NCBI RefSeq assembly: GCF_014203395.1
Contig: NZ_JACHIW010000002.1
Coordinates: forward strand, 1,364,001 to 1,428,000
Direction: 5' to 3'
DNA from: Saccharopolyspora phatthalungensis
GTDB lineage: Bacteria > Actinomycetota > Actinomycetes > Mycobacteriales > Pseudonocardiaceae
Length of the DNA stretch: 64,000 bases
The stretch's first letter is position 1, and each line of letters begins with the position of its first letter. Both the position numbers and the translations under genes were made by a program. Positions 7,704-54,926 of the stretch are shown one piece after another. The notes under the pieces are model-generated. The model ran no database searches and was not told the DNA's origin. It saw only the letters and a list, made by a program, of their open reading frames with translations.

Positions 7704-7732
7704 AGCCATGGCCCCCGACTTAGCCAGCACCG

Positions 7733-15102: not shown

Positions 15103-15123
15103 AGGGAGATCACTTCCTCCGAT

Positions 15124-15144
15124 AGGTTGGTCGATCAGTCGTCC
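15124..15144. promoter_or_regulatory. Conserved 21-base element upstream of gene A, copy 1
   Basis: On the minus strand this reads GGACGACTGATC followed by [GA]ACCAACCT. It recurs at 30709-30729 and 38054-38074, always 20-24 bases before gene A, in an otherwise more variable gap. It may be a promoter, an operator or an RNA element. Confidence 0.5.
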
Positions 15145-15276
15145 AGTAGGGCTTGCTGGGGCTTGCACGTGTCGAGCTGCCTTGGTCCGTCGAGCACCCG
15201 GCTGAACCTCTCCGGCGGGGTCGGCGAAGTTCAGCCGGTGTTGGGCGGAGGTCGTGACCTCGGCGACGACACCTAG

Positions 15277-17636: not shown

Positions 17637-18190
17637 GCGGGCATCAGCGGCAGCAACCGACGTCCTCCAGTCTGCGTGTCCGTGCTGATCGGGCACTGCT
17701 CGGTGTCGACGTCGCCGATCCAGCCGCCGGCCGCGACGACGGCGGCCGGGCAGCCCTTGCCACAGCCGGAGTTCATCGAGCACGCCGAGCAGGTGGCGTT
17801 CGCGCCGACCCGGTAGCGGTCATGGAAGCGGTAGTCGTCCAGCCGCCGGGCGATGTCGGAGTCGGTGAAGATGTTGCCGACGATGAACTCAGCGTCAGCG
17901 TGCCGCGATTGCGGGGTACGTGCGGCGAACACCAGGTACGGGCACACGGTCACCTCGCCGGGAGTGAACACATAGATGATCGTCCCAGCCTCGCACCCGG
18001 CCAGCGGCTTGCCGTGGGTGTTGGGGAAGCGGATGTGCGCGATGTCCAGCTCCGGGCCATCAAACGGCGCGGTCAGCTCGAAGATCTCCTGCATGTGCAA
18101 GGTCGTCTTGGCCAGCTTGTCCCGTGACTTGACCCCGCGACCCATGCTGCCCAGCGGGTTGAGCAACACGTAACGCGCCCCGTTGTCGCG
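17633..18190 (-). pseudogene. Radical SAM/SPASM protein, N-terminally truncated
   Basis: A fragment of about 185 residues beginning near 18190 (LRDNGARYVLLNPLGSMGRG). The C-terminal CSACSMNSGCGKGCPAA followed by EQCP is a SPASM-type auxiliary iron-sulfur cluster site. The N-terminal CxxxCxxC radical SAM motif is absent because the DNA upstream is a different gene fragment on the other strand. SPASM enzymes often modify peptides or link to nucleotide pathways; here only a remnant remains. Confidence 0.7.
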
Positions 18191-18192
18191 CA

Positions 18193-18438
18193 GTGCAAGC
18201 CCGAGAAGCAGCAGAGGCCGCCGAGGACACGTTCGGCCAAGCCGGTGCCGCCTACCAGCGGACGTGCGCTCTGCTGCGCGCCGGCCGCCTCGACGACGCC
18301 GAACAGACGGCCGTGTCAGCAGCTGACACCGTACGGGGTACCGATCCGCAGAGCATGACCTGGCGGGGCGCCTTGACATTGATCAGCGCGATCATCGCCG
18401 CTCGCCGCAGCGATTCCGCTGAGGCAGCTGATCGATGA
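18193..18438 (+). pseudogene. XRE/TPR-type regulator, internal-to-C-terminal fragment
   Basis: About 75 codons reading AAYQRTCALLRAGRLDDAEQ, TAVSAADTVRGTDPQSMTWRG and ISAIIAARRSDSAEAADR. These are TPR-like helices of the large actinobacterial XRE regulators (compare the gene at 27117-28583). No HTH and no plausible start are present, and it abuts the radical SAM fragment head-to-head. Remnant. Confidence 0.55.
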
Positions 18439-18690
18439 AGCGCGCGGTCAGGCTCATGCAGCGCAGCAGGAAAAGATACGCGAGCTTCGAGGCAGCTTGA
18501 CGGTCGCATCGACCCCGACGACCCGTCGCGACCGTCGCGGAACAACGGCTCGCGGGCGGTGAGCATGGGGTGATTGACCACGGTCATGAGGGCCGCCACC
18601 GTCAGCAGTGGTGGCGACTCCCGAAATCGCATCTCCCCCCGTCCGCCGACAGTGTGATGTTGCCAAAACCCCATCCGGTGATCGAATCTG

Positions 18691-27120: not shown

Positions 27121-28583
27121 GCCGTTGTGGTGAGCGCGGTGCGGATATGTTCACGGAGGTCGGCGACCTCAGATTTGCCGCTGTGCGGTGCGGCCACGGT
27201 GTCCAGGACGCGCAGTCGAGCGTAGCCACGGGTGGAGGACAGTCCGCTGATCGCGTTCACCGCGTCGTAGCCGGTGGCCACCGCGGCGTCGATATCACCG
27301 GCCTGGAACTGCGCCGAGGCCAGCGGGGGCAGGGTCACGGCGCGGGTGCGCTCGTATTCCGCGCCGTATCTGGTAGTTGAGCTGGTCAGTTTCTCGATGG
27401 CCTCGGGTGCGAACTCCGGGCGGGACAGCGACAGCAGGTACAGGGAGTAGCCCTGTTGGCCGGTGATCTCGGCGTCGGTGACGAACTTTGTCCACGGCGG
27501 TGTGGTGGCCGGATCGGCGGCGGCGTAGGTCTCTTGGGCTTGCCCGATGGCACGGCGGGTGGGCTCTGGCTCGCCGAGCGCTGCGCGGCACCAACCGAGG
27601 ACCGCGGAAGTGTAGCCCTGGGTGATCGCGCCGACCGGGTGTTTGCGGTTGGCGGCGGTCGCCGAGGCGAGCTGCACTAGGCGCAGTGCCTCACTTGCGC
27701 GTTCGAGGTGGAGTGCTTGGTGTGCCATGTCCAGGAGCACGCGGACTGCCAGGTCGGTGGCGCGGGGATGATCGTCGGCGGCGCGGTGGGCGGTGTCCAG
27801 GGCGTAGGTCCACAGACGGCGGGCGGCGTCGTGATCGTCGACGTCGTAGGCCGCCCACCCTGCGATGCGGGCATGGTTGGCGATGGCCACCAGCAGGCGG
27901 GTGCGGATCTCCGGCGAGCAGAGGGCGTCCTCCAAGCGGCGTGCCTGGTGCAGTTGCGTAGTGGCCGCCGCGCGGCACAGCCCACCGCCATGAGCCACGG
28001 ATGACCGGCGGAACCCTTCGGTGATCGCCTCGATGGCGTCGACGTCGGCCGCGCCGATTCGGGGCCGGGTTACCGGCTCGGCCTGGCCGGGCAGCAGTGA
28101 GCCCAGCCGGGCGAGTTCGGGATTTAGACTGGATCCCAATGTGGCGGCCGTGACCAGGGAGAGAAAGTCCCTGCGTTCCAACCAACTCACCTCCTTGTCA
28201 GTTTCATTACCCGTTACGGTATGGCCGGTGGGAAATCCGAGCAAGGGGGCCGGGATGCGCAGGACTGTGGCCATCCGAGCGGCAGTCCTGACGTGGGTCA
28301 GCCTTCGCTCGCCCCGCTCGACAGCGGAAACCCGGGATTGGGACAAGCCGAGCAGGTCGGCGAGCTGAAGTTGCGAGAGCCCGGTTTGCTGCCGCACGGC
28401 GGTGAAAACCGCGCCGAAGTCATAGGTTTCCAGCGCAGTGCGCAGGTCCGTGTCCTCGTAAAAGCCCTCTGGGATCGGCTCACGGAACCCGGCGGCGCGG
28501 GCGCAAGGTCCGCACAACGCGTCATTCACGCCGACACGCAGCACAGTGCCGCAGCACTGGCAGCGTTGTCGCGGACCATTCAT
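27117..28583 (-). CDS. XRE-family regulator with N-terminal zinc finger and TPR-like region
   Basis: A 488-aa regulator. A CxxC-CxxC ribbon opens it (QRCQCCGTVLRV, ALCGPCARAAG). The HTH lies around residues 60-110 (GLSQLQLADLLGLSQSRVSA, VERGERRLTHVRTAARMA), followed by a long alpha-helical repeat region to the C-terminus. The layout resembles the large Streptomyces XRE/TPR family. It is coupled to the phosphotransferase downstream. ATG 28583 was taken because the Cys finger begins there; the frame is open further upstream without protein-like sequence. Confidence 0.85.
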   Translation of the reverse strand: MNGPRQRCQCCGTVLRVGVNDALCGPCARAAGFREPIPEGFYEDTDLRTALETYDFGAVFTAVRQQTGLSQLQLADLLGLSQSRVSAVERGERRLTHVRTAARMATVLRIPAPLLGFPTGHTVTGNETDKEVSWLERRDFLSLVTAATLGSSLNPELARLGSLLPGQAEPVTRPRIGAADVDAIEAITEGFRRSSVAHGGGLCRAAATTQLHQARRLEDALCSPEIRTRLLVAIANHARIAGWAAYDVDDHDAARRLWTYALDTAHRAADDHPRATDLAVRVLLDMAHQALHLERASEALRLVQLASATAANRKHPVGAITQGYTSAVLGWCRAALGEPEPTRRAIGQAQETYAAADPATTPPWTKFVTDAEITGQQGYSLYLLSLSRPEFAPEAIEKLTSSTTRYGAEYERTRAVTLPPLASAQFQAGDIDAAVATGYDAVNAISGLSSTRGYARLRVLDTVAAPHSGKSEVADLREHIRTALTTTA

Positions 28584-28918
28584 GGCTCGCCTTCCATTAA
28601 CGGACAAGTGCTCGTCCCGGGGCCACGGCGTTACGCCCTTCGGTCGAGGTGTGCCGTGCACCACTACAGCGGTCGATCATAGTCAGTCGTATCGGCCATC
28701 GCGCTGTAAAGCCCCATTGGGGCTAGCACCGTTGGGGATTGGAGACCTCGGCGCGGATGGCGACGATCAACGGCATGGCACAGCCAACGTCGCCCGCGCT
28801 GCGAAGGACCGAGCACGACGCTCTCCGGCCGATCCCCACTGGTTCATTCGCCCTGCCAGCAATGGGACGCCGTTGCCGGCCGGGCGGTGGACGTAACGGG
28901 TGGACAAGGACTTCAGCG

Positions 28919-29689
28919 GTGGATGAAACGTTGGCCCGAGCTGGCATATTCCAGGGTGTTGAGCCGACACTAGCACTCCCCCAGTCGCTGGAACCGGTGG
29001 AGTTCCCGCGAGGAAACATGATTTTCGCCGAGGGCGAGCCGGGCGACCGGCGCTACATCGTTCAGTCGGGCAAGGTGAAGCTGGGGCGCAAAACCCGGGA
29101 TGGCGGGACGAACCTGCTGGCGGTCTTGGGGCCGTCGAACATGTTCGGCGCACTGTCCCTTTTAGACTCGGGTCCGCGGGCCTCGACGGCGACCACGGTA
29201 ACCGAGGTTCGTGCGTTGAGCATGGACCGCGCGGTGCTGCGGCGGTGGATCTCCGTCCGCCCGGAGAACGCCGAACAGTTGCTTTGCATGGAGGCACGCC
29301 GAGTACGCCGCACTACGGAAATGGTGTACGACCAGGCATTCACTCGGGCGTCCGGCCGCGTTGCCAAGGCGCTGCTGCAGTTCGCGCAGCGCTTCGGTCA
29401 CCGGGAGGCGGGGGTAATCCGTGTCGATCACGGCTTGAAGCAGAAAGAGATCGCCCAGTACATCGGCGCCGCACGGGAAACCGTCAACACGACGCTGGCC
29501 GACCTCGCACACCGCGGCTGGCTGCGGCTTGAGGCGGACAAGACCGTTGTCCTCCTCGACCCCGAGCCACTGGCCCGCTACGCAGGCACACCACGCTCGC
29601 CACACGCGAAGAAACAACACTTAGCTCGGACCACGTCACCGAAGCTATCGGACCTCAGCGCAGGGCGCCGGCCCCGACACACAGCCTAA
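28919..29689 (+). CDS. Crp/Fnr-family transcriptional regulator (GlxR-like paralogue)
   Basis: About 256 aa from GTG 28919 with AAGGA upstream. The cyclic-nucleotide-binding fold is clear (PRGNMIFAEGEPGDRRYIVQ, SGKVKLGRKTRDGG, GPSNMFGALSLLDSGPRAST), followed by a Crp HTH (LKQKEIAQYIGAARETVNTT). Compared with actinobacterial GlxR/Crp proteins the hinge helix is altered (MEARRVRRTTEMVYDQAF) and there is an added basic C-terminal tail. The effector is unclear; this looks like an accessory paralogue. The segment 28584-28918 between it and the XRE gene holds both promoters but no gene I can support. Confidence 0.88.
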   Translation: MDETLARAGIFQGVEPTLALPQSLEPVEFPRGNMIFAEGEPGDRRYIVQSGKVKLGRKTRDGGTNLLAVLGPSNMFGALSLLDSGPRASTATTVTEVRALSMDRAVLRRWISVRPENAEQLLCMEARRVRRTTEMVYDQAFTRASGRVAKALLQFAQRFGHREAGVIRVDHGLKQKEIAQYIGAARETVNTTLADLAHRGWLRLEADKTVVLLDPEPLARYAGTPRSPHAKKQHLARTTSPKLSDLSAGRRPRHTA

Positions 29690-29717
29690 AGCGGGTGATG
29701 GGTGCGGTGAGTCCGTC

Positions 29718-29942
29718 ATGATCTGGCGTCTGCGAGCAGTGCTGGGCCGCTGGTGGGAGCACTGCGATGCGCGCTGGCGGCGGGCGCTGCGGGAGCACTG
29801 GCCTTCTTTGAGCTCGCCGCAGCCTATGGACTCGGCCTGGACTGGCGTCGTCGCCGGGAATCAGGACGTGACCGGGCCGCCGCCCCAACGGCGTGGCAGC
29901 GGCCCACCAGTTCAACTGTGTCCCAAGGAGGTTGACACCTGA
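29718..29942 (+). CDS. Repeated leader ORF F, copy upstream of lipoprotein 2
   Basis: A 74-aa frame starting MIWRLRAVLGRWWEHCDARW, whose TGA overlaps the lipoprotein ATG (TGATG). The DNA from about 20 bases before the start through the first 30 codons recurs at 31547 and 34399, each time ahead of different sequence, and a partial copy lies at 37141. The residues RW-x-CDA-W-RALxEHWP are conserved. The C-terminal end (QRRG...VQLCPKE) recurs before the lipoprotein at 37310. Coding is likely; function unknown. Confidence 0.5.
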   Translation: MIWRLRAVLGRWWEHCDARWRRALREHWPSLSSPQPMDSAWTGVVAGNQDVTGPPPQRRGSGPPVQLCPKEVDT

Positions 29943-30532
29943 TGAGGAGCTTGACTCCGCTGTGGCCGGTTGTGGTGCTGGCGTCGGTGGGTCTGCTCGT
30001 GGCCGGATGTGTCGGAAACTCCAATCTGGATCCGGCCCGCGACCGGTACCAGGCGTTGCCGCGGATCTGCGATCTGGTCTCGCCGGCGACGGCGAGTCGG
30101 GTGATCGGAGCGTCGTTGCAGACCGACGCCCTGTCGGTCGAAACCACGGGTTACTGCGCGTGGACGTACCGGGATCTGGGGTCTGAAGGCGCGCACCCGC
30201 TGGAACGGAGGTTGTCCCTGCACGTGAGCCTGCATCGCAGCAGTGACACGAGATCCGGTTCCGATGGGGCTCTGGAAGAACTGGACCGGCTCAGCGAAGA
30301 CTCGCCGAATGACTTCGAGCGCGTGCTGGGCTTCGGGGAGTACGCGGTGCGCAGCACCACACCGGACGGTGTCGATTACATTATCGTTGTCGGCAACCTG
30401 AACCTGAAGATGGGGTATTCCGGGCGGGATGTGGACGCCGCGGGTCAAATGGCCCCGATGCCACGCGACCAAGCCACCGAACGGGCCGAGGTCCTCGCCC
30501 GCGAAATAGCGGCGAACACCGCAAGAACCTGA
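29942..30532 (+). CDS. DUF3558-like lipoprotein, copy 2
   Basis: A 196-aa lipoprotein with lipobox LVAGC, RICDLVSPATASRVIGASLQ, GYCAWTYRDLGSEG and DYIIVVGNLNLKM. It is nearly identical to the copy at 37310 and has the same length as the inverted copy at 15277. Translation is coupled to ORF F. Its A-B-C genes downstream are damaged, so this copy may be an orphan. The function of the DUF3558 family is not established. Confidence 0.85.
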   Translation: MRSLTPLWPVVVLASVGLLVAGCVGNSNLDPARDRYQALPRICDLVSPATASRVIGASLQTDALSVETTGYCAWTYRDLGSEGAHPLERRLSLHVSLHRSSDTRSGSDGALEELDRLSEDSPNDFERVLGFGEYAVRSTTPDGVDYIIVVGNLNLKMGYSGRDVDAAGQMAPMPRDQATERAEVLAREIAANTART

Positions 30533-30708
30533 CCACACGGTGCCGTCGCCAACGTCCCGGCCAGCGTGCCGAAACCGGTGACACCCCGAGCTTCTGCCTC
30601 GTTTCCTTACCCCAACACTAGCTGAACTCGGGAGTCGGCCGCAGGTGTTTCAGCGGAGCCCGACGACCCAAAGCAGATCGACACGTACAAGCCCCAGCAA
30701 TCCCTAGT

Positions 30709-30729
30709 GGACGACTGATCAACCAACCT
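30709..30729. promoter_or_regulatory. Conserved 21-base element upstream of gene A, copy 2
   Basis: GGACGACTGATC plus AACCAACCT, the same element as at 15124-15144 and 38054-38074. It is kept here although the gene behind it is broken. Confidence 0.45.
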
Positions 30730-30749
30730 AGTCGAGGACGTGATCCCCT

Positions 30750-31055
30750 ATGATGGCGAGTCCTGCACACGCAGTCGTGCAGCTGCTAATGCTGGCCGAG
30801 CACGACATCGTCGGTGTGGGCGTTTTCCGCGACCTTGAGCACCGAATCTTCGCCGGTGCCCGACCAATTGCCGTCCGTGGCCGGGTCGCTTACTGGTCAG
30901 CGTGCAACTCGCCAGCGTTTCCGTCCAACGGCGATAGCTTCTCCGCACGGACTCTGACCAAGTGCCAGACTGCGCACGTGCCCACCCTGCGGATGCGCAA
31001 CGGCTGCTGCCCCCAGCACCCTCCGCTGTGGCACACGGTGGGTTCGGTACCGTGA
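30750..31055 (+). pseudogene. A/C fusion remnant of the cassette, copy 2
   Basis: The frame begins like protein A (ASPAHAVVQLLMLAE) and switches after 17 codons to protein C (HDIVGVGVFRDLEHRIFAGA). Peptide B and most of A are gone. Both parents contain GGCCGA at the join, so a deletion of about 430 bases ran between two 6-base repeats. One G is also missing after CCA in the C part, so KCQDCARAHP becomes KCQTAHVP and the rest is out of frame. Not functional. Confidence 0.8.
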
Positions 31056-31280
31056 CCGGCCAGTTGAGTGCCGTGGAAGGGATCGCCTCGTGAGTTCCGA
31101 ACTTCCGGAGCCGGTCGGTGCTGGTTGCGTACGCCGCCTGCATTCGAGGAAACCATTATTTCTCAACAGAATTCGATGTCTCCCGTACTACAAGGCCAAG
31201 ACTCTTGTCTACAAGCATTTAACCCCTCAGCCCGCCTACCCGGAGACGGTGCGCTGGATGGAAGGACTGAAAATGACCTT

Positions 31281-31326: not shown

Positions 31327-31760
31327 CTCGAAATCCGCAACAACCACAGTTGTGGGACCCCGGTTGTTGGTTTCGTTGGCGAACCTCGGCACCGTGCACG
31401 TCATGCCCTCGCCGAGTCAGACGACCTCCGAGCTGATCGACCACGCCTCGCCCCAAGGAATCATCTCCCGACACCACACTGTGGACAGATCGCCGATGGG
31501 CTGCTCGCTACCGCCGCATCCTGCTTTCCAGACCCGGTAACGGGTGCGGTGAGTCCGTCGTGATTCCGCGCCTGCGAACGGTGCTGCGCCGTTGGGGCGA
31601 GAGCTGCGATGCCAACTGGCGGCGAGCGCTGCATGAGCACTGGCCTGCCGTGCGTCCGGACATCTGCCCGCGTCGCGGACCCCCAGGCCATCCCCCGCAG
31701 GTGCCCACCGTGGGCTCAGAAGCCACCGGGGGACCGCCCGCGCATCCAAGAAAAGAAGGC

Positions 31761-31796: not shown

Positions 31797-32078
31797 ATGA
31801 ACGAGTACACCTGGCGGCAGTCCGGGCTGGACGCCCTCAACCACGCCTTTGCGTCCGAGGGCGGATTCATCCACACCGTCGAATCCGATTCGCAGACTCC
31901 TGCCGAGGTAGCGGAGTACCACGTAAGCGCCTGCCGCGAGATGCTTCCGCTGGCATTCGTGATGTACCAAGGCGGCGGCGCGCCCTGTGAGGTGTGCCGA
32001 AGCGCAACCACCTATGAAAAGTCGCTGGAACTCCGCACCGGCAGCGTCGTCGATCTGAACCGACAGCCCGTCCGCTGA
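31797..32078 (+). CDS. Cassette protein D, copy 2
   Basis: A 93-aa protein (NEYTWRQSGLDALNHAFASE, EYHVSACREMLPLAFVMYQG, GGAPCEVCRSATTYEKS) with one CxxC pair and an earlier Cys. About 90% identical to the copy at 39281. No known domain. An upstream GTG at 31560 is in frame through the repeated F leader, so a longer product of about 172 aa is possible; ATG 31797 is the conserved common start. A strong hairpin follows the stop in both copies. Confidence 0.7.
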   Translation: MNEYTWRQSGLDALNHAFASEGGFIHTVESDSQTPAEVAEYHVSACREMLPLAFVMYQGGGAPCEVCRSATTYEKSLELRTGSVVDLNRQPVR

Positions 32079-32585: not shown

Positions 32586-33803
32586 ATGGACCATGAGGAT
32601 AAGGCCCTGGGCCGTCGCCTTCGTGAGGTGCGTGCCTGGCGTCAGCTCTCCCTGAAGGAAACCGCGGATCTCGCGGGGATCTCGTTCGGCTACCTCGGCC
32701 GGATCGAGCGGGGAGAGCAGCCGGTCACCTCGCGCGCCACGCTGGAGGCGCTGGCCAACGCGCTCCGGATCGACCCTGGTGAGTTGACCGGAACGCCTTA
32801 CGCGCCCTGCGATCCCGTGGGAAGCGACGCACACGCGGCCTTGCGGGAAGTGGAAAAGGCGCTCTCGTCGCTGGACCTGGGCGTGGATCCCGGTGTCCAG
32901 GCCAGGCCGTGGGCGGCGCTGGCGGCCGAGGTCGATCACCTCAACAATACGTTGAGAGCCGCTGCGGACTATGCGGCCCAGGGTGCGGTAGTGCCAGGGC
33001 TGCTGACCGAATTGCACGCCGCTTACGTGCAACAACCGAATGAGCGTCAGAACGTCTTGGTAGGTCTGCTCCACACCTTTGATTCCGCCGCAGTGTTGAC
33101 GAAGAACCTCGGCGTTCGAGGATGGCCGGTGATGGCCGCCCGTCTCGCCGAGAACTGTGCGCAAGAGCTGGACCGGCCTGAATGGCTCGGCTTTACGACC
33201 TGGTTGCGGGGACACACCGCTGGCTCTCATAGCCGCACGCACCAGTACGGGGTGAGCGTAGGCGGAATAGACGCCTTGGCATCGCACCTGGACTGCTCGA
33301 ATGCTCTCCAGGCCGCCGGAATGCTGCACCTCAATGCCGCTCTAGCAGCTGCGGCACAGTCGGACGCGGACACCACCCGCGATCACTTGCGTGAGGCCAC
33401 AGAGCTGGCCTCGCGGCTTCCCGAACGGCACGACAACTTTGGATATCTTCACTTCAGTCCGGACAACGTGGGGATCTGGCGGGTGAGTTTGGGAACCGAG
33501 CTTGGGGAGGGGGCGAAGGTCGCCGAGATCGCCCGTCACGTGCGCCCTGAGGCCGTGCCGGCAAAGGCCCGTCGCGCTATGTTCTACGCGGACCTGGGCC
33601 GAGCACTGGCCAGCGAGAAACGAACGCGGGAGCAGGGAATCCGGGCGTTGATCAAGGCCGAGTCGATTGCTCCGCAGCGTATCCGTAACAACATCTTCGT
33701 GCGTGAGACCGTGGCGGACTTGCTTCGGCAGGCCCGGCGTGATGCCGGCGGCCGTGATTTGCGTGGGCTCGCCTGGCGGATGGGAGTTGTCCCTACCGGG
33801 TGA
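32586..33803 (+). CDS. XRE-family regulator with TPR-like C-terminus, copy a
   Basis: A 405-aa regulator. The HTH is at about residues 7-65 (LGRRLREVRAWRQLSLKETA, DLAGISFGYLGRIERGEQPV), then a long helical region (GMLHLNAALAAAAQSDADTT) like the TPR sensor part of large actinobacterial XRE proteins. GGAGGGG precedes ATG by 10 bases and overlaps a GGGGT/ACCCC inverted repeat that could be an operator. About 30 residues differ from copy b at 35590, mostly around residues 195-240, plus a two-residue indel. Confidence 0.9.
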   Translation: MDHEDKALGRRLREVRAWRQLSLKETADLAGISFGYLGRIERGEQPVTSRATLEALANALRIDPGELTGTPYAPCDPVGSDAHAALREVEKALSSLDLGVDPGVQARPWAALAAEVDHLNNTLRAAADYAAQGAVVPGLLTELHAAYVQQPNERQNVLVGLLHTFDSAAVLTKNLGVRGWPVMAARLAENCAQELDRPEWLGFTTWLRGHTAGSHSRTHQYGVSVGGIDALASHLDCSNALQAAGMLHLNAALAAAAQSDADTTRDHLREATELASRLPERHDNFGYLHFSPDNVGIWRVSLGTELGEGAKVAEIARHVRPEAVPAKARRAMFYADLGRALASEKRTREQGIRALIKAESIAPQRIRNNIFVRETVADLLRQARRDAGGRDLRGLAWRMGVVPTG

Positions 33804-34219: not shown

Positions 34220-34398
34220 CTCTTTGCCTGACAGGAAAAACTACCTGTTTCTCGCTCGTGGCTGGGTTATGACTGCCGGCGCTATATCGCAATTGGCGTA
34301 GTCATTCTCATGACGGCGTGTGAATCACGATCACGGGACAGGAATGGGAATTGACCGTTCACGGGGCTGCGTCACTGCGGAAGCGTGGTGCCCCACGG

Positions 34399-34510
34399 GT
34401 GCGGTGAGTCCGTCATGAGCCAGCGCCTGCGAGCAGTGGTGGGCCGCTGGTGGAAGCACTGCGATGCCCGCTGGGGGCGAGCGCTGCGGGAGCACTGGCC
34501 TTCCTCCCAG
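34399..34510 (+). repeat. F-leader repeat, isolated copy
   Basis: GGTGCGGTGAGTCCGTCATGA and the following 90 bases match the leaders at 29697 and 31547. The frame from ATG 34415 begins MSQRLRAVVGRWWKHCDARW and continues into unrelated sequence, ending at 34603. A truncated duplicate at a recombination boundary. Confidence 0.6.
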
Positions 34511-34599
34511 TGTCTTTCCGTCCGCGCTGCGCGCCGACTTCTCGCTGTGGCGCAATATTCAGCGGGAATACGCCGAAGAACTCCTGGGGCAAGTCGAGT

Positions 34600-35185
34600 A
34601 TGACGGCAGCGGAAGACGATACGCTACGTCCAGCAGGAGCCCTTCGCGAGCATGGATGCGGCTCAGGTCGACGGCAGGATCCAGGTGTGGTGTCTTGGCC
34701 TCACGCTGGATGCGTTGACCTTGTGTGGCGACATCCTGACCGTCGCGGTGATCGAACCGGAGTTCTACGACACACTCTTCGGCGCGGCTGCCGTTCGAAA
34801 CAATGCCGAGGGGCGCGTTCCCACACAGGTTCTTCCCTTCGAGGGGAACACCATCCGGCGGTTGCCCCTCTGTCCTCAGGGAACTGTCCCACACGCCACA
34901 TGCTCGGATGCTTGAGGACCGCGTGCGGGTGCTCACGTCGGCGAGGTCGGAGTCGAAACTCTCGGGCTGCCCGGCATCGGCTCGGCGCTGGCGCTCCTGG
35001 CCTAGGTCAAAGCCCGGCTGGAAGTATTGAAAGGCCTGTCGATAGTCCTGACCGCGGGCAATGGCCGCACCGAACACCGCAGAGAATGTATGACGCGGGA
35101 CCCCCAACCAGTCGGCCCAGGTGCCGTACTCTCTGGTCTCGTCTACCAACGTCTCACCAACGTCGAAAATGACCGCACAAATCAC
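34600..35185 (-). pseudogene. HAD-family hydrolase, decayed
   Basis: From GTG 35185 (CGGGAGG upstream) the minus strand reads CAVIFDVGETLVDETREYGT, with the HAD nucleophile motif FDVGET, then a cap-like stretch GVPRHTFSAVFGAAIARGQD to RADAGQPESFDSDL. After about 100 residues similarity fades; a later piece (LGIVSNGSRAEECVVEL) recalls HAD motif II. The last motifs (Lys and GDxxxND) are not found. A broken phosphatase-like gene squeezed between cassette copies. Confidence 0.6.
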
Positions 35186-35589: not shown

Positions 35590-36813
35590 ATGGACCATGA
35601 GGATAAGGCCCTGGGCCGTCGCCTTCGTGAGGTGCGTGCCTGGCGTCAGCTCTCCCTGAAGGAAACCGCGGATCTCGCGGGGATCTCGTTCGGCTACCTC
35701 GGCCGGATCGAGCGGGGAGAGCAGCCAGTCACCTCGCGCGCCACGCTGGAGGCGCTGGCCAACGCGCTCCGGATCGACCCTGGTGAGTTGACCGGAACGC
35801 CTTACGCGCCCAGCGATCCCGTGGGAAGCGACGCACACGCGGCCTTGCGGGAAGTGGAAACGGCGCTGTCGTCGCTGGACCTGGGGGTGGACCCCGGTGT
35901 CCAGGCCAGGCCGTGGGCGGCGCTGGCGGCCGAGGTCGATCACCTCAACAATACGTTGCGAGCCAACGCAGACTACGCCGCCCTGGGTGCGGTAGTGCCG
36001 GGGCTGCTGACCGAGTTGCACGCCGCCTACGTGCAACAACCGAATGAGCGTCAGAACGTCTTGGTAGGTCTGCTCCACACGTTTTATTCCGCCGCAGTGC
36101 TGACGAAGAACCTCGGCGTTCGAGGATGGCCGGTGGTGGCCGCCCGTCTCGCGGAGGACTGTGCGCAAGAGCTGGACCGGCCTGAATGGCTGGGCTTCGG
36201 CATCTGGTTGCGGGGGAACGTCGCCGGGGCTCAGGGCCGCACGCACCAGTACGGGATGAGCGTTCGCGGAATAGACGCCTTGACTCCTCACCTGGACTGC
36301 TCCAATGCTCTCCAGGCCGCCGGAATGCTGCACCTCAATGCCGCTCTAGCGGCTGCGGCACAGTCGGACGCAGACACCACCCGCGATCACTTGCGCGAGG
36401 CCACAGAGCTGGCCTCGCGGCTTCCCGAACGGCACGACAACTTCGGATATCTCTACTTCGGTCCGGACAACGTGGGGATCTGGCGGGTGAGTTTGGGAAC
36501 CGAACTCGGGCAGGGAGCGAAGGTCGCCGAGATCGCCCGTCACGTGCGCCCAGACGCCCTGCCCCTGCCGGCCAAAGCTCGTCGCGCGGTGTTCTACGCG
36601 GACCTGGGCCGGGCGCTGGCCAGCGAGAAACGAACGCGGGAGCAGGGAATACGGTCACTGATCAAGGCCGAGTCGATTGCTCCGCAGAAGATCCGTAACA
36701 ACATCTTCGTGCGTGAGACCGTGGCGGACTTGCTTCGGCAGGCCCGGCGTGATGCCGGCGGCCGCGATCTGCGCGGACTCGCCTGGCGGATGGGAGTTTC
36801 CCCTACCGGGTGA
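35590..36813 (+). CDS. XRE-family regulator with TPR-like C-terminus, copy b
   Basis: A 407-aa paralogue of the protein at 32586 with an essentially identical HTH (REVRAWRQLSLKETADLAGI), so both should recognise the same DNA. Differences cluster in the presumed sensor part (GIWLRGNVAGAQGRTHQYGM versus TTWLRGHTAGSHSRTHQYGV). The upstream 60 bases, including GATCGGGTA and the GGGGT/ACCCC repeat over the RBS, are shared. It precedes the intact lipoprotein-A-B-C-D set and is its likely regulator. Confidence 0.9.
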   Translation: MDHEDKALGRRLREVRAWRQLSLKETADLAGISFGYLGRIERGEQPVTSRATLEALANALRIDPGELTGTPYAPSDPVGSDAHAALREVETALSSLDLGVDPGVQARPWAALAAEVDHLNNTLRANADYAALGAVVPGLLTELHAAYVQQPNERQNVLVGLLHTFYSAAVLTKNLGVRGWPVVAARLAEDCAQELDRPEWLGFGIWLRGNVAGAQGRTHQYGMSVRGIDALTPHLDCSNALQAAGMLHLNAALAAAAQSDADTTRDHLREATELASRLPERHDNFGYLYFGPDNVGIWRVSLGTELGQGAKVAEIARHVRPDALPLPAKARRAVFYADLGRALASEKRTREQGIRSLIKAESIAPQKIRNNIFVRETVADLLRQARRDAGGRDLRGLAWRMGVSPTG

Positions 36814-37145
36814 TCTTGAGGTCAGTTGTCCTCACAGGACAAAACCTCATCACACCACCTCATAGCGTGCCCTCCATGTCGGAAGGAACGCGCTCCGCTA
36901 GCCCGTGGACTGATGCCGACGGAGGCTGCGGTGGAAATGGAAGCGCTGTTGGACATCCCCTGCGGTGGCCTCCGTATTTGCCCAAACTTTTCGCGAAAGC
37001 TACGCCGTCCGCTACCGGCCGTACGCGGCCGACGTGGAACATTTCGCCGGGCTCCACCCATTTCTCGCTGCCGGATGAGACCGTCGGCGTTCTCGTTGAG
37101 CTGTTTACCCACTGCGGTAAAGGTGTTCGAGCTGGGGAAGTAGCG
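36814..37145. repeat. Conserved post-XRE segment, copy b, joined to the end of ORF F
   Basis: Nearly identical to 33804-34140. At about 37141 it joins the tail of the F module (LAGAAGALAFLDLAAGYGLG to VQLCPKETDT), which ends TAATG over the lipoprotein ATG at 37310. The frame from 36810 to 37310 is therefore a chimera created by a deletion, though it may still couple translation to the lipoprotein. Confidence 0.5.
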
Positions 37146-37309
37146 CTGGCGGGCGCTGCGGGAGCACTGGCCTTCCTCGATCTCGCCGCAGGCTATGGAC
37201 TCGGCCTGGACTGGCGTCGTCGCCGGAGTCAGGCCGTGACCGGGCCGCCGTCCCAACGGCGTGGCGGCGGCCCAGCGGTTCAACTGTGTCCCAAGGAGAC
37301 TGACACCTA

Positions 37310-37900
37310 ATGAGGAGCTTGACTCCGCTGTGGCCGGTTGTGGTGCTGGCATCGTTGGGTCTGCTGGCGGCCGGATGCGGCGAAAACTCCAATTTGGATC
37401 CGGTCCATGACCGGTACAAGGCGTTGCCGTGGATCTGCGACTTGGTCTCGCCGGCGACGGCGAGTCGGGTGATCGGAGCGTCGTTGCAGACCGATGCCCT
37501 GTCGGTGGAAACCACGGGTTATTGCGCGTGGACGTACCGGGATCTGGGGTCAGAAGGCGCGCACCCGCTGGAACGGAGACTGTCCTTGCACGTCAGCCTG
37601 CACCGCAGCAGTGATACGAGATCCGGCTCCGATGGGGCGTTGGAAGAGCTGGACCGGCTCAGCGAAGACTCGCCGAATGACTTCGAGCGCGTGCTGGGCT
37701 TCGGGGAGTACACGGTGCGCAGCACCACGACGGACGGTGTCGATTACATCATCGTTGTCGGCAACCTGAACCTGAAGATGGGTTATTCCGGGCGGGATGT
37801 GGACGCGGCGGGTCGCATGGCCCCGATGCCACGTGACCAAGCCACCCAACAGGCCGAGGTCCTGGCCCGCGAAGTAGCGGCGAACACCGCACAAGCCTGA
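37310..37900 (+). CDS. DUF3558-like lipoprotein, copy 3
   Basis: A 196-aa lipoprotein with lipobox LAAGC and the same body as copy 2 (CDLVSPATASRVIGASLQTD, GYCAWTYRDLGSEG). Surface-anchored. It is followed 195 bases later by intact A, B and C genes and is the only plus-strand copy in a complete cassette. DUF3558 proteins are suspected of envelope roles; none is proven. Confidence 0.87.
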   Translation: MRSLTPLWPVVVLASLGLLAAGCGENSNLDPVHDRYKALPWICDLVSPATASRVIGASLQTDALSVETTGYCAWTYRDLGSEGAHPLERRLSLHVSLHRSSDTRSGSDGALEELDRLSEDSPNDFERVLGFGEYTVRSTTTDGVDYIIVVGNLNLKMGYSGRDVDAAGRMAPMPRDQATQQAEVLAREVAANTAQA

Positions 37901-38053
37901 CCGCGCGGTGCCGTCGCCGAAGTCACGATCAGCGTGCCGATGCTGGGGACACCCCGAGCATCAGCTGAATTCGGCAGAGGCCGCAGATGTTTCGGCGGGT
38001 GCTCGACACGCTCCAAAGCAGCTCGGCACGTGCAAGCCCCAGCAGGTTTTAGT

Positions 38054-38074
38054 GGACGACTGATCAACCAACCT
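38054..38074. promoter_or_regulatory. Conserved 21-base element upstream of gene A, copy 3
   Basis: GGACGACTGATC plus AACCAACCT, 21 bases before ATG 38096, as in the other two cassettes. Confidence 0.5.
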
Positions 38075-38095
38075 TGTCGAGGACGTGATCCCCCT

Positions 38096-38446
38096 ATGAC
38101 GGTGAGTCCTGCACACGCAGTCGTGCCGCTGCTATTGCTGGCCGACAGCGACGATGTGAAGGAACGTCCTGCTCATCTGCCTCCGCTGGAGGAGCCGGGT
38201 TTCCTGGACTTGGTTCGGGAGGTGCATCCGCAGTTGGAGTACGCGATGCAGCGCAAGCGTGCCCGTGGCGAGGTCGTGCATGTTTTCCGGGACCGTGTCA
38301 GCCAGGAGTTCACGATTTTGTACCGGCGCGAGCACGGTTCGGATGGGGTCAAGGAGTCGGGCTCTCCGTGGCTGGATCGCCTCAACGAACTCGGCGGCAT
38401 GTGGCGCGCGGCGCGCCCGCAAAAGTCCCGGAGTGGTGCGCGATGA
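38096..38446 (+). CDS. Cassette protein A, copy 3
   Basis: A 116-aa protein of unknown family (SPAHAVVPLLLLADSDDVKE, EVVHVFRDRVSQEFTILYRR, WLDRLNELGGMWRAARP), the same length as copy 1 and intact. A GAGG lies 13 bases before ATG, the same long gap as in copy 1. The TGA overlaps the ATG of peptide B. The lack of signal peptide or membrane helix suggests a cytoplasmic protein. Confidence 0.82.
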   Translation: MTVSPAHAVVPLLLLADSDDVKERPAHLPPLEEPGFLDLVREVHPQLEYAMQRKRARGEVVHVFRDRVSQEFTILYRREHGSDGVKESGSPWLDRLNELGGMWRAARPQKSRSGAR

Positions 38447-38526
38447 TCCTGTCCCTACTGGAGGTCGCCCTTCTGCCCGAGCACAAGCTGACTGGGTTCA
38501 CCGCCGAGCAGAGGAGGGCCGTCTGA
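38443..38526 (+). CDS. Cassette peptide B, copy 3 (27 aa)
   Basis: ATG 38443 overlaps the stop of A (ATGA) and TGA 38524 overlaps the start of C (TGATG). The peptide (LEVALLPEHKLTGFTAEQRR in its core) aligns without gaps to the 27-residue peptide at 14672-14755, with about 20 identical positions. GAGGAGG inside its last codons serves as RBS for C. Confidence 0.68.
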   Translation: MILSLLEVALLPEHKLTGFTAEQRRAV

Positions 38527-38861
38527 TGACCGGTGTTGGCGCCGAGACCGGGCTGCCCCCGGCCGAGCACGACATGGTCGGTGTGGGCGTTTTCCGGGAC
38601 CTTGAGCACCGGATCTTCGCCGGTGCCCGGCCGATTGACGTTTGTGGCCGGGTCGGTTACTGGTCAGCGTGCAACTCGCCAGCGTTTCCGTTCAACGGCG
38701 AGAGCTTCTCCGCACGGACTCTGACCAAGTGCCAGGACTGTGCACGTGCCCACCCTACGGATGCGCAACGGCTGCTGCCCCCAGCGCCCTCCACTGTGGC
38801 AAACCGTGGGTTCGGCACCGTGACCGGCCAGTTGAGCACTGTGGAAGGGATCGCCTCGTGA
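38526..38861 (+). CDS. Cassette protein C, copy 3
   Basis: A 111-aa protein (VGVGVFRDLEHRIFAGARPI, WSACNSPAFPFNGESFSART, LTKCQDCARAHPTDAQRL) with a probable metal site from SAC and KCxxCxxxH. GAGGAGG lies 7 bases before ATG. The stop overlaps a GTG at 38858 (GTGA) opening a frame SSELPEPVGG that runs in phase into gene D, so a fourth coupled product E, or an E-D fusion, is possible. Confidence 0.78.
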   Translation: MTGVGAETGLPPAEHDMVGVGVFRDLEHRIFAGARPIDVCGRVGYWSACNSPAFPFNGESFSARTLTKCQDCARAHPTDAQRLLPPAPSTVANRGFGTVTGQLSTVEGIAS

Positions 38862-39244
38862 GTTCCGAACTTCCCGAGCCGGTCGGTGGTGGTTGCAACG
38901 CTGAGACCCGTCAGCTACCGCAGCGCTTCGTGTCGTCGCGGACGTCCCCCAGCGGGTGCCGATACCTCTGGAGAGGGCCGGCGTATGTGCCCGCGACCAC
39001 GGCCCCATACGCCGCATCACTTCGAGGAAACCTTTATTTCTCAACAGACTCTGCCGGGTTGTTCTTGCTGACTTTCTCGGCATGCGTCCTGACGCTGATC
39101 GAGATCTGCGATGAGAAGAAGGACAATCGGTGCACGGCAGATGCCGTCCGGACACGCCCGCGTCGCGGACCCCCAGGCGATCCCGCGCTGGTGCCCAGCG
39201 TGGGCGCAGACGCTACCGGGGACCGCTCGCCCATCCAAGAAGAC

Positions 39245-39261
39245 GCTGCCCGTGGGGCAGC
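39245..39261. promoter_or_regulatory. Hairpin upstream of gene D, copy 3
   Basis: GCTGCCC-GTG-GGGCAGC, identical in sequence and distance (20 bases to the ATG) to 31761-31777, although the flanks differ more. Confidence 0.45.
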
Positions 39262-39280
39262 ACGACCAGAAAGCATCGCC

Positions 39281-39562
39281 ATGAACGAATACACCTGGCG
39301 GCAGTCCGGGCTGGACGCCCTCAGCCACGCCTTTGCCTCCGAAGGCGGATTCATCCAAACCATCGAATCCGAATCCCAGACCCCTGCCGAGGTTACGGAG
39401 TACCACGTAAGCGCCTGCCGCGAAATGCTCCCGCTAGCGTTCGTGATGTACCAAGGCGGCGGCGCGCCCTGTGAGGTATGCCAAAACGCCACCACATATG
39501 AAAAGTCGCCGGAACTCCGCACCGGAAGTGTCATCGATCTGAACCGACAACCCATCCGCTGA
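39281..39562 (+). CDS. Cassette protein D, copy 3
   Basis: A 93-aa protein like that at 31797 (EYTWRQSGLDALSHAFASEG, GGGAPCEVCQNATTYEKSPE). One CxxC motif plus a Cys in SACREML may bind metal. In frame with GTG 38858, so it may also be made as the end of a 234-aa protein. It closes the cassette, being followed by a strong hairpin. No known family. Confidence 0.72.
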   Translation: MNEYTWRQSGLDALSHAFASEGGFIQTIESESQTPAEVTEYHVSACREMLPLAFVMYQGGGAPCEVCQNATTYEKSPELRTGSVIDLNRQPIR

Positions 39563-39570
39563 TACAAGCT

Positions 39571-39618
39571 CCGGCCCGCCGCCGCTGCACCTCCCCTCCC
39601 ACACCGGCGGCGGGCCGG
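39571..39618. terminator. 14-bp perfect hairpin after gene D, copy 3
   Basis: CCGGCCCGCCGCCG (39571-39584) pairs exactly with 39605-39618 across a 20-base loop, starting 8 bases after the D stop. The same element, with a 10-bp stem, follows copy 2. Confidence 0.7.
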
Positions 39619-39673
39619 TCCCGCATGCGCGCACTCGCCGCCGGGACAGAAGAACCCTAAAAACTTGCCGTCG

Positions 39674-49403: not shown

Positions 49404-52400
49404 CTAGCTGGCCGGTGACGGTAAGTAGCCGGATTCGACGAAGAAGCGCACGTACCTCATGAGGGTTTCCCGAGTGACCACCGGGTCCTCAAGACCGGTC
49501 GTCGCCAACGCTTTCGCGGTTTCGCTGTTGTCCACCAGTGGGTAGCCGGCGCCGGATGTGTGGATTGCGACGAAGTCGTCCAGCAGCGGGGTCAGCGCGT
49601 TGCCGGCGTCCGACTTGACCCGCTTCAGCCAGTCCTCCCAGTCCAATTCGGACAGTTGGTAACCGGACTCGCGCAAGCAGTCCACCAGTTGGTCGAAGGC
49701 GATCGCGGTCTCGTTCGCAATGTTGAATGTGCGGCCGTTGTGGCTGGGGTCGGCCGAGAGTTCGAGCACGGCGGCGCTGACGTAGTCGACGGGCACCAAG
49801 TACAGCCGTCCCGCGAGGCCGCGGGGCACGGCGCCGGCCTCGACCATGCCCTTGACAGTGAGCCAGACGAAGTCGCGGGTTTGACAGGCGCCGGTGTCCC
49901 GAGCGCCGGAGATCGTGTCGACCCGGTACACCGAGACAGGCAGTCCGCGATCCCGCCCGATATCAATGATCTGTTCGGCTACCCATTTGCTCTGGCGGTA
50001 GCCGGTGGTCAACGCCTCGCCGGGGCCGGTGGGATCCTGCACCCGGAATGGCGTTCCGGGATCCGCGGGCGTGGGATAGACGCCGGTGGAGGAAATGTGG
50101 TGCACGGGCACGCTTCGGATAGCAGCGAGGCGCAATACCTCGGTTGTGCCGCCGACGTTTGCGGCACGTAGCTCTGGATACGGGAACAGCCAGTTGGGCA
50201 TCGCTCCCGCGTGGTAGATCACGTCGGCCTCGTCGGCCAGCTTCTCGAAGTTGGTGGGCTCCAGACCGAGCAGTGGCTTGGTCAGGTCTCCGGGCAGCAC
50301 GGTGATCCGCTGGCCGTAGTCGTCCGCCCAAAGCCCGTACCAGCGCAGATTTTGCCGGATCCGGTCGAGGCCGTCCTTCTCGTTGTCCGCCCGGACGAGA
50401 CAGTGCACGTGCATAGGCGTCTTCCGGAGCAGGTCGCGCAGCAGGAAAGCCCCGAGGAAACCCGTGGCGCCCGTGAGAAACGCCGAGACGGCGACATGCC
50501 GGGGTGCGCCCGTGCCGGGGACGATGGCATCGTGCAGGTGGATTTCCGAGGCGAAGTCCACCGCTGGTCGCGGTGAGGTCTCCCCGTGGCTCTCGCCATC
50601 GCCCAACTGGTTCATCAGGTGCTTGACCAACGCACTGGGCGTGGGGTGGTCGAAAATGAGAGTGGCGGCCAACCGGAGCCCGGTTGCGGCGTCGAGTCCG
50701 TTACGCAGCTCGACCGCGGACAAGGAGTCGAATCCGATTTCCAGGAACGGCCTGTCGTCCGCGATGGCATCGGCATCGCGGTGGCCGAGCACGGTAGCGG
50801 TCTTGCGGAGCACGAGTTTCCGAACAGCGGACCGAAGTTCGTCCCCGGACAGCTCGGCCAGCTGTTCAGCGCTGGTCGATGGACCGTCGGCCTGCTCCGG
50901 TGTGCCGATGGTGAGGGTGCGCAGCAGTCCGGGGGCTGTCGCGGACGTCTCGATCAGCGTTCGGTCGATCGGGCTCGCGACGACGGTGGGTGCTTCGCTG
51001 CCCATCGCGGCGTCGAACAGCGCGAGGCCGGCGGAGGGCGTGATGGGCTTGATGCCTTGGCGCGTGACTCGGTGAATGTCGTTCGTGGTCAGGCGTGCGG
51101 CCATGCCGGTCTGGGATGTGTCCCACAGGCCCCAGGCGATCGAGGTGGCGGGCAGTCCTTGGCCGTGGCGGTGGTGGGCGAGTGCGTCGAGGAAGGTATT
51201 AGCGGCCGCGTAGTTGCCTTGTCCGGGGGCGCCGAAGGTGCCGGCGATGGAGGAGAAGAGGACGAACGCGTCCAGGTCGAGGTGTCGAGTGAGCTCGTGC
51301 AGATGCCATGCCGCGTCGACCTTGGGGGCGAGCACGTTGTCGATCTGGGTGGGAGTCAGCGAATTGATCGTGCCGTCGTCGTTGATGCCTGCGCTGTGGA
51401 TGACGGCGGTCAGGTCGATCCCGTCGAGGAGGTCGGCCAGGGCAGCGCGGTCGGAGACATCGACGGCGGTGATGTCGGCGTGGGCGCCCAGGGCGGTGAG
51501 TTCGTCGCGTAGTGCGGTGGCGCCGGGGGTATGGATGCCGCGGCGGCTGGTGAGCACCAGTTTGCGGACCCCATGCCGGGTCACGAGGTGGCGGGCGAGA
51601 AGGCTGCCCAGGGCGCCCATCCCACCGGTGATCAGCACGGTGCCGTCGGGAGACCACCGGACGGGTGTGGTGGAGGTGGGCGGCGGGGCGAGCGCGGGGG
51701 TGAAGGTGCGTCCACGGCGCAGCGCAAGAACGGGCTCGTCGGTGTGGATCGCCTCCGGCAAGGCGGTGCGGCTGTCGGGGTGGGTGTCGTGGTCGATCAA
51801 GGTGATGCGGCCGGGGTTTTCCGACTCGGCCGACCGCAGCAATCCCCACACCGCGGCGATGGCCGGGTCGACCGGGTCGGTGCCGCCGGTACTGAGGGCG
51901 CCGGTCGCCGTCACCACCAACCGGGTCGCGCGAAGTCGTTCGGTGCCCAGCCAATCGCGCAGCAGTGCCGCAGTCCGTTGGACACGCTCGTGGGTTTCGG
52001 TGATCACGTCGCGGGACGAGGCGGCCAGTGGGAGCTGGATCGTGTCGGTGTCGTCGTCGACGGCACCCAGATCGGGGTGTTCGCCGTCCAGCCGGACCAC
52101 CCGGGCCGCTCGGGTGACGCTCCGGGAATGATCGTTCCAGCCAACGGTGAACAACCCGTCCACTGGTGACACCGCGGCCATGGTCGGCACGCTGCTCCAG
52201 AAGCGTTCTCGCTGGAAGGCGTAGGTGGGCAGGTCCACGACCCGTGCGCCGGGATAAACAGCCCGCCAGTCGACGCTGCGACCAGCCGCGTGCACCTGCC
52301 CGAGTGTGCTCAGGACGGTGTCGACCTGCGGCTTGTTGCGACGTTGTGTCGCGACCGCGGTATGTCCGGTGTCCTGCAGCAGCGCGGTCAGCGTCGCATC

Positions 52401-54887
52401 CGGGCCCAGTTCGACCACAGTGGACTGTTCGATCGCGGACATCGCGTCATGGAACCGCACCGTGCCTCGCACGTGCCGCACCCAGTAGTCGGGATCGGTC
52501 AGCTCCGCCTCGGTGGCCGGCCGTCCGGTCAACGTGGACACCACCGGAATCACCGGTGCGTGGTAGTCGACGGTGCCCGCGATCCGCCGGAATTCCGCCA
52601 GCATCGGCTCCATCAACGGCGAATGGAACGCATGGGACACCGTCAACCGCCTGGTCTTACGGCCGCGCTCGGCGAGCACCGTCGCCACCGCTTCCACCGC
52701 CTGCTCCGTCCCGGCGATCACGACCGAATCCGTGGCGTTGACCGCCGCCAGGTCCACCGACGATCGATCCCCCAGCAACGGCACTACCTCGTCCGCACCG
52801 GCTTGCACCGCGGTCATCGCCCCACCCGCCGGCAACGCCTGCATCAACCGGCCACGCGCCGCGACCAGGGCCGCCGCGTCGGCCAACGACCACACCCCGG
52901 CCACATGCGCCGCCGCGAACTCGCCCACCGAGTGCCCCACCACCTGGTCCGGGACGATCCCCCAAGACTCCAGCAACCGGAACAACCCCACCTGCAGCGC
53001 GAACAACCCGGCCTGCGTGAACACCGTCCGGTCCAGCTCGGTCTCGCCACCGGCCGTGCCGAACACCACGTCGGCCACCGCGAACCCGACATGCCCGGCC
53101 AGCTGCCGGTCCAGCTCGCCGGCCGCCGCGTGAAACGCTTCCGCGAACACCGGGAACCGGCCGGCCAACTCCCGCCCCATTCCCCGGTATTGGCCGCCCT
53201 GACCGGAGAACGCGAACAGCGTCGCCGACGGACCCGCCCGCAACACCGAAACGTCCCGCAACTCCCCCGCAAAACCCGCAATAGTGCTCGCGGTAACCAC
53301 CGCGCGGTGCTCGAACCAGGTGCGGGTGGTCGCCAGCGAGAAGCCGATGTCGACCGGGTCGGAACCCGGGTGAGCGCGCAGGAACGCGGCCAATCGCTCG
53401 GCCTGCGCGGTCAGGGCACGCGGTGTGTGAGCGGATAGGATCCACGGCACCACCCCCGCCTCGGAACGCTCACCAACCCCGGCACCGGCTTGGTCGGTGT
53501 CCTCGGGCGCCTGTTCCAGGATGACGTGCGCGTTGGTTCCGCTGACCCCGAACGACGAGACCCCGGCCCGGCGCGGCACGCCGGTCTCGGGCCAGCGCTG
53601 CGCCTCGGTGAGCAGCCGCACCCCACCGGACGCCCAGTCCACATGCGGCGACGGCTCATCCACGTGCAACGTGCGCGGCAGGACCCCGTGCCGCATCGCC
53701 TGGACCATCTTGATCACACCGCCCACCCCGGCGGCCGACTGGCTGTGACCGATGTTCGACTTCAACGACCCCAACCACAACGGCCGCTCCGGATCGCGTT
53801 CGCGCCCATAGACCGCCAGCAACGCGTCGGCCTCGATCGGATCGCCCAACGTGGTCCCGGTGCCGTGCGCCTCCACCGCGTCCACCTCACCGGGCGACAA
53901 GCGCGCCGACCGCAACGCCGCACGGATCACCCGCTGCTGCGACAGCGCGTTCGGCGCGGTCAGCCCGTTGCTCGCCCCGTCGGAATTGACCGCCGACCCC
54001 CGCAAGACCGCCCACACCCGACGACCGTTTCGCCGCGCGTCAGAAAGCTTCTCCAACACCAGCACACCCACGCCCTCGGCCCACCCGGTGCCATCCGCAG
54101 CCGCGGCGAACGCCTTGCACCGCCCGTCCGCGGACAACCCCCGCTGCCGGGAGAACTCCACGAACACCCCCGGCGACGCCATCACCGTCACCCCGCCGGC
54201 CAACGCGAGGTCGCACTCACCCGACCGCAACGACTGCGCCGCCAGATGCATCGCCATCAGCGAGGACGAACACGCCGTGTCCACCGTGAGCGACGGCCCC
54301 TCCAACCCCAGCACATACGACACGCGACCCGAGATCACGCTGCTGTGCTTGCCGGTGAGGAGATGACCTGCGGAACCGGTGTCGGATTCGTGCAGGCGAG
54401 GACCGTAATCCTGCGCGCTGCCACCGAGAAACACGCCGGTCGGGGTGCCGGCGAGGTCGCTCGGCGCGATCCCGGTCCGCTCGACCGCCTCCCACGCAGT
54501 CTCCAGCACCACCCGCTGCTGCGGATCCATCGCCGCCGCCTCGCGCGGTGAGATTCGGAACAATGCCGCGTCGAACAACGGTGCGTCGTGCAGGAATCCG
54601 CCGTAGCGGGTGTGAGTACGCCTAGGCGCGTCCGGGTCCGGGGAGTAGAGCGCGTCGAGATCCCAACCCCGGTCAGTAGGAAAATCGCCGACTACGTCCT
54701 TTCCGCCGTCCACGACCTGCCACAACGCCTCCGGTGAATCCACCCCGCCCGGATAGCGGCAAGCCATGCCGACGATCGCGATCGGCTCGCGAAGCCGTGC
54801 TTCGGTCTCCGTCAACCGGTTGCGGACCTCGAACAACTCCGCCGTGACGCGACGCAGGTACTTGCCGAGCTTCTCGTTCTCGTTCAT
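49404..54887 (-). CDS. Type I modular PKS, KS-AT-KR-ACP-thioester reductase
   Basis: An 1827-aa terminal module. An N-terminal coiled-coil docking helix (1-33) precedes the KS, with catalytic Cys ([11 protein letters not shown]), EAHGTGT and SNIGHSQ. The AT has GHSVG and HAFH motifs, predicting malonyl-CoA. The KR is intact ([28 protein letters not shown]) and has NDD in place of the LDD of B-type KRs. No DH or [15 protein letters not shown]. The C-terminal about 380 residues are a reductive release domain ([29 protein letters not shown] with Tyr-Lys). It receives a diketide from the upstream synthase and releases an aldehyde or alcohol. GAAAG precedes ATG. Confidence 0.95.
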
Positions 54888-54926
54888 AAGACACTTTCGA
54901 TGGTTCTGGCGCTTGGCCGGTGACGC

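Follow-up and report, generated by a model that had tools for sequence, protein, structure and literature searches.

A repeated lipoprotein and small-protein cassette in Saccharopolyspora phatthalungensis whose gene context recalls WhiJ/BldB-type loci

Among the described systems closest to the locus considered here are the WhiJ-BldB-AbaA/IosA loci of Streptomyces, which bring together an XRE regulator, a DUF397 protein and a small neighbouring protein. One study names the abaA paralogues and iosA as the outputs of such loci; it reports that overexpressed adjacent genes such as AbaA and IosA disturb development in Streptomyces venezuelae, that loss of BldB raises the abaA paralogues and iosA, that WhiJ9 activates iosA via repeats in the shared intergenic region, and that the bldB phenotype is reproduced when iosA and abaA6 are overexpressed together (PMC10294661). 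In other papers, XRE-DUF397 pairs are studied as regulators of antibiotic production (PMC10364602) or proposed as toxin-antitoxin systems (PMC2701414, PMC7159879). Here we describe a repeated cassette in a 64,000-nucleotide stretch of the Saccharopolyspora phatthalungensis genome (the window), in which a gene for an XRE regulator with tetratricopeptide repeats (TPR) precedes genes for a lipoprotein (LPP) and for the small proteins A, B, C and D2. Judged from its sequence, the cassette consists of real genes, most of them constrained. Their context links them to an already described class of regulators, here in an unusual, reshuffled arrangement. We consider it somewhat probable that it represents a chimeric, recombining output operon of actinobacterial WhiJ/BldB-type XRE-regulator islands.

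Gene context of A, C and D2 relatives

The case for this reading comes from relatives of A (116 amino acids (aa), an alpha/beta protein without signal peptide, 38096-38446), C (111 aa, 38526-38861) and D2 (93 aa, 39281-39562), the last two being C...CxxC proteins and all three encoded on the + strand. Counting the S. phatthalungensis genome itself (G000), A matches occur in 11 of 390 Pseudonocardiaceae genomes (6 of 46 genera), D-query matches in 9 of 390 (4 of 46 genera, with the two lowest-scoring matches probably not D2) and C matches in 28 of 386 (13 of 46 genera). Outside that genome A has 11 places in 10 genomes, all fetched, and the D2 query has eight, of which six were used and the two weakest (G066, G432) dropped. 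A domain test covered 32 neighbour proteins, two at each of 16 loci (10 with A relatives, six with D2 relatives), the remaining A place being checked separately. All 16 XRE proteins match HTH_31 and DUF5753, 15 of the 16 small partners match DUF397, and at every one of these loci the XRE gene and its small partner are transcribed divergently from A or D2, at a distance of 1.0-3.3 kb. From genome counts, DUF397 would be expected within 3 kb of about 0.003-0.074 of random places. Put in terms of A places in other genomes, at 10 of 11 the A operon adjoins a DUF397 gene and an XRE gene of divergent orientation. Inspection of these 10 by eye shows small cysteine proteins preceding A in seven and a second A-like domain adjoining A or fused to it in five. 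At five of the six D2 loci a cysteine protein of about 150-190 aa lies directly before or over D2.

C is likewise associated with XRE genes. An XRE helix-turn-helix (HTH) lies within 2.5 kb at 19 of 24 C loci, compared with two of 24 in a control ring of equal length 5-7.5 kb away. These 24 were drawn from 47 C places, namely 20 of the 35 in other genomes (one per genome) and four of the 12 in the S. phatthalungensis genome, with neither the cassettes nor one of the pair of C places in L046 counted; the stretches around C in L161 and L167 are truncated on one side, so that the control ring is slightly smaller there. Profiles for XRE and DUF397, as used at the C loci, in the window and over other fetched loci, were built from loci of this analysis.

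The likeness to WhiJ/BldB-type loci thus has two parts: relatives of A and D2 stand opposite an XRE-DUF5753/DUF397 pair, at the position of the small output gene, and DUF397 is present in many copies per genome, with 64 matches in that of S. phatthalungensis. A, C and D2 are likened to AbaA and IosA by gene context and not by sequence. Because relatives of the small proteins adjoin a known regulator class, the cassette resembles an output module of that class in reshuffled form more than an entirely new system. A, C and D2 are three unnamed families tied by genomic context to XRE regulators outside Streptomyces, and are for that reason direct candidates to test.

The first-pass annotation had regarded the gene set as undescribed. 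This stands in so far as A, B, C and D2 match no naming family in Pfam or NCBIfam, and fails in that relatives lie in known XRE neighbourhoods, those of A and D2 being of the XRE-DUF397 type. Absence of synteny of A, B and C in other genomes, which it had named as refuting its reading, is what the fetched loci show: profile scans find two of A, C and D2 together only in the S. phatthalungensis genome, the sole exception being L090, where a marginal C match (E 0.0084) next to D2 is part of the longer cysteine protein. Within C, C49, C69 and C72 are invariant. A, whose structural model has a predicted local distance difference test score (pLDDT) of 81, reaches 17.2 bits (E 0.0042) against PF16321, the C-terminal domain of a ribosome hibernation factor, and of 27 aligned A members 10 match it with E no higher than 0.1, the lowest being 0.0042; with a cut-off of 25 bits, we do not assign A to the hibernation factors.

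A different account would make A, C or D2 a growth inhibitor silenced by the XRE protein, in a toxin-antitoxin or anti-phage module. The uneven multicopy spread and the XRE partner suit such an analogy, as do a plasmid-borne A locus in Prauserella marina and the earlier proposal for XRE-DUF397 pairs (PMC2701414). Among 72,556 plasmid records, one, from Prauserella marina (NZ_CP016354.1, L175), carries A, and no A was found in viral contigs or phage records by pattern scan or by tblastn with one A relative. The A relative P0007 is named a YafQ-type endonuclease in one source, a name not supported here; no RelE/YafQ-like chain appears among the 50 matches listed from either of two fold searches, which is not decisive. 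Against this account, A, C and D2 have no PADLOC match and the regulators match PADLOC models in their HTH region only, and overexpression of 14 DUF397 proteins in S. coelicolor is without clear toxicity (PMC10364602), a result silent on A, C and D2. We regard a toxin-antitoxin or anti-phage role as unlikely. On the Prauserella marina plasmid, the A-type operon with its XRE and DUF397 genes is located near a lasso peptide gene cluster.

Copies and constraint within the genome

The first-pass annotation had described two intact LPP-A-B-C sets that agree in gene lengths and overlaps, beside a broken third copy, and sequence comparison bears this out. The direct copy begins with LPP (37310-37900, +), an open reading frame of 196 aa with a signal peptide and a lipobox-like LLAAGC by eye, and includes B (27 aa, 38443-38526, +), recognised from sequence and alignment, between A and C. 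The inverted copy (14337-15867, -) lacks D2 and places LPP at 15277-15867, A at 14752-15102, B at 14672-14755 and C at 14337-14672. Gene lengths are equal in both (196, 116, 27 and 111 aa), as are the overlaps, A with B by ATGA and B with C by one base (TGATG), and over 1.64 kb the copies share 83% identity, far above chance. In the third copy (29942-31090, +), LPP is intact (29942-30532), a deletion carries A early into C, and C is frameshifted. Also as described earlier, there is a second D2 (93 aa, 31797-32078, +) and a second XRE-TPR regulator (32586-33803, +), whose protein is 93% identical to that of the regulator at 35590-36813.

To this inventory a search of the genome with 37310-38861 adds further copies, with 15 matches in all, the query included. 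On contig C1, A-(B)-C-D2 units lie at 445 kb (L033) and 3833 kb (L032), LPP occurs alone at 4233 kb (L034) and half an LPP at 3816 kb; on contig C2, a B-C-D2 unit lies at 1638 kb (L035) and short fragments of LPP, A or D2 at 1207, 1470, 1493, 1499 and 1635 kb. B is shortened in frame by nine codons in L032 and L033. The units have different XRE regulators upstream, or none; in the window copy, L032 and L033 the XRE gene is upstream and co-directional. In L035 a DUF397-like frame (9296-9580) lies about 0.5 kb after D2. An L035 gene considered as a decayed XRE regulator matched neither XRE nor Pfam profiles, and was rejected.

When the window unit is compared in 150-base steps, in which differences are small, the closest copy shifts along its length: L032 for A, L033 for B and much of C, L035 for the end of C and the spacer, L032 again for D2, and L035 for the end. 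This mosaic suggests sequence exchange between copies and, if it does reflect exchange, regulators and outputs would be swappable. At the right border the copies diverge within some tens of bases of one another and not at a single base, and we therefore reject exact transposon ends there.

Ratios of nonsynonymous to synonymous change (dN/dS, by Nei-Gojobori) between repeat copies are 0.19-0.44 for LPP (six pairs), 0.20-0.33 for A (six pairs), 0.28-0.68 for C (10 pairs), 0.08-0.48 for D2 (10 pairs) and 0.23 for the XRE pair. LPP, A, D2 and XRE, well below 1, are thus constrained proteins, and C less clearly so; values near 1 for A, B and C, which the first-pass annotation had named as evidence against its set, were not found for A or C. 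The open frame that runs from C into D2 does not hold up as a gene. This frame, D1, gives dN/dS of 1.1-2.0 (three pairs, with four to 18 changes per pair), and the copies differ in the C-D2 stretch by indels of 2 and 5 nt; from its dN/dS the stretch (38862-39280, +) looks like a spacer. D1 resembles the 150-190 aa cysteine protein that precedes D2 in relatives solely in its last residues ahead of the D2 overlap, and with a best profile E of 0.4 we reject it as a relic of that protein.

The same constraint bears on the possibility that the copies are decaying debris, recombination products around mobile elements with little present function. Several fragments and frameshifts would fit, as would a 3.7 kb stretch, found upstream of two copies at 99.5% identity, that contains recombinase-like genes (L033 195-3874, L035 1203-4880). 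The dN/dS values below 0.5 for LPP, A, D2 and XRE stand against decay, and we think this explanation improbable, slightly more so than a toxin-antitoxin role.

The lipoprotein and its relatives

The first-pass annotation recognised a DUF3558-like domain, yet LPP of the window has no Pfam match even at an E threshold of 1, DUF3558 (PF12079) included, and one of 12 aligned relatives matches DUF3558, at E 0.026. The operon that holds the closest relatives of LPP beyond the cassette is YbaB/WXG100-like. In L034, two YbaB genes above the cut-off are followed by a WXG100-like gene (E 1.3e-4, below the Pfam cut-off), with which LPP overlaps; two other genomes (G020, G007) have the same gene order, each with a YbaB match above and a WXG100 match below the cut-off, and G004 has a shortened set with a weak YbaB match only. 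Similar sets, the shortened one included, are found at three of the seven LPP loci fetched from other genomes (L135-L137, L139-L141 and L144 of 18 listed, the best-scoring, except that L136 and L113 lie together). The window copies of LPP, unlike these lipoproteins, stand outside such an operon. From this pattern an association of the LPP operon with ESX may be proposed, and LPP may have been brought into the cassette by recombination and then kept by selection. A separate set in the window (6703-8377, -) has overlapping frames for a lipoprotein, a YbaB-like protein (below cut-off) and a WXG100 protein (E 5.1e-9).

The first-pass proposal of a module for stress, conflict or signalling that reaches from envelope to cytosol, with LPP indispensable as sensor or effector and coupled to A, B and C, draws on the two intact LPP-A-B-C copies and on selection on LPP and A, but we find it the least convincing of the explanations weighed here, with LPP carried by three of six units in the genome (the window copies, and not L032, L033 or L035), not found by tblastn at the 11 A and six D2 loci of other genomes, and with its nearest relatives elsewhere, some in the YbaB/WXG100-like operon. 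Gene context elsewhere does not bear out LPP as a member of a conserved module.

The window regulator, a proposed switch and neighbouring features

The regulator of the window (407 aa, 35590-36813, +) is, as the first-pass annotation recognised, an XRE protein with TPR: it matches HTH_31 (E 2.4e-14), and its AlphaFold model (pLDDT 88.7, predicted TM-score 0.82) has an HTH followed by a TPR-like superhelix. ComR, Rgg, PlcR, PrgX and NprR form the RRNPP group of peptide-sensing regulators. The top Foldseek matches are ComR, Rgg2 and PlcR, with one match at E <0.001 and low TM-scores, and the TPR similarity extends to many unrelated proteins. On the model, the regulator is an XRE HTH joined to TPR in a ComR/PlcR-like architecture; the modelled N-terminal XRE HTH and superhelix are what it shares with RRNPP regulators, and the weak fold scores are where it differs. 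Nor was a cognate peptide gene identified, no search having been aimed at a peptide carrying a secretion signal.

LPP-A-B-C-D2 sits downstream of this gene, so that small output genes are adjacent to an XRE regulator. The XRE-TPR protein would act as a regulatory switch, sensing a ligand via its TPR domain and binding DNA upstream to switch an LPP-A-B-C-D2 transcript, with translation of A, B and C coupled. A and the cysteine proteins C and D2 would act in the cytosol, after the manner of AbaA and IosA of Streptomyces venezuelae, the copies would exchange sequence, and the lipoprotein would have arrived by recombination from a YbaB/WXG100-like operon. A strong hairpin directly 3' of D2 (39571-39618, +), seen from folding energy and alignment (minimum free energy of 39563-39625 -35.8 kcal/mol, z -4.85; present in five aligned copies), is probably the transcript end. 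A terminator scan that requires a T run does not list it, and a sigma-70 promoter scan found no promoter.

Several observations weigh against reading the cassette as a WhiJ/BldB-type output operon. The window regulator is upstream and co-directional, unlike the divergent XRE-DUF397 pair of the relatives; it matches HTH families in Pfam and not DUF5753, and the DUF397 profile finds nothing in the window. Profile scans find no XRE gene in L035 or around the copy at 14 kb. At the eleventh A place (L085, a weak match at E 3.9e-7) neither XRE nor DUF397 is found by profile, and the divergent neighbour there gives sub-threshold TPR matches only. Five of the 24 C loci are without XRE (L041, L155, L156, L157 (one genus, no gene called there) and L158). 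Many loci are close relatives (L087, L088 and L091, from Actinopolyspora, are alike, as are L080-L083), so the counts are not independent. A has no convincing fold match in the two fold-search lists; RnlA NRD / CENP-N is at most a candidate fold for it. As for LPP, the YbaB/WXG100-like set is missing at four of the seven loci in other genomes, the WXG100 matches around LPP are below the Pfam cut-off, and copies under selection are not simply dead passengers.

A bolder version of the output-operon reading, which we consider unlikely, is that recombination between WhiJ/BldB-type islands reassorts RRNPP-like XRE-TPR sensors and interchangeable small cytosolic sets (A, A', C, D2), the genome keeping a diversifying repertoire of regulator-output pairs, and that B (27 aa), located inside the output operon, would be a coupling or signal peptide. 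If true, bacteria would have here a counterpart to shuffled recognition or conflict systems.

Other repeats surround the cassette. A 107-bp repeat occurs at 29700-29806, 31542-31648 and 34397-34503, its frame reading as the start of a Trp/Arg-rich small protein. An XRE gene and the region before a Crp-like regulator (27121-29274) are repeated in whole or in part at L036 and L045, at about 88% identity. A gene at 34559-35185 (-), HAD-like by eye and without a match in a Pfam scan to E 1, is related to genes of L031 and L035 that adjoin cassette copies or genes for regulators. Stretches of 18189-19713, including part of an XRE-TPR-like gene, are 99% identical to C1:3819-3821 kb (L031), which on sequence identity is a recent duplication. 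Further along, 49404-60980 (-) holds two genes of 1827 and 2017 aa that appear by eye to be polyketide synthase-like.

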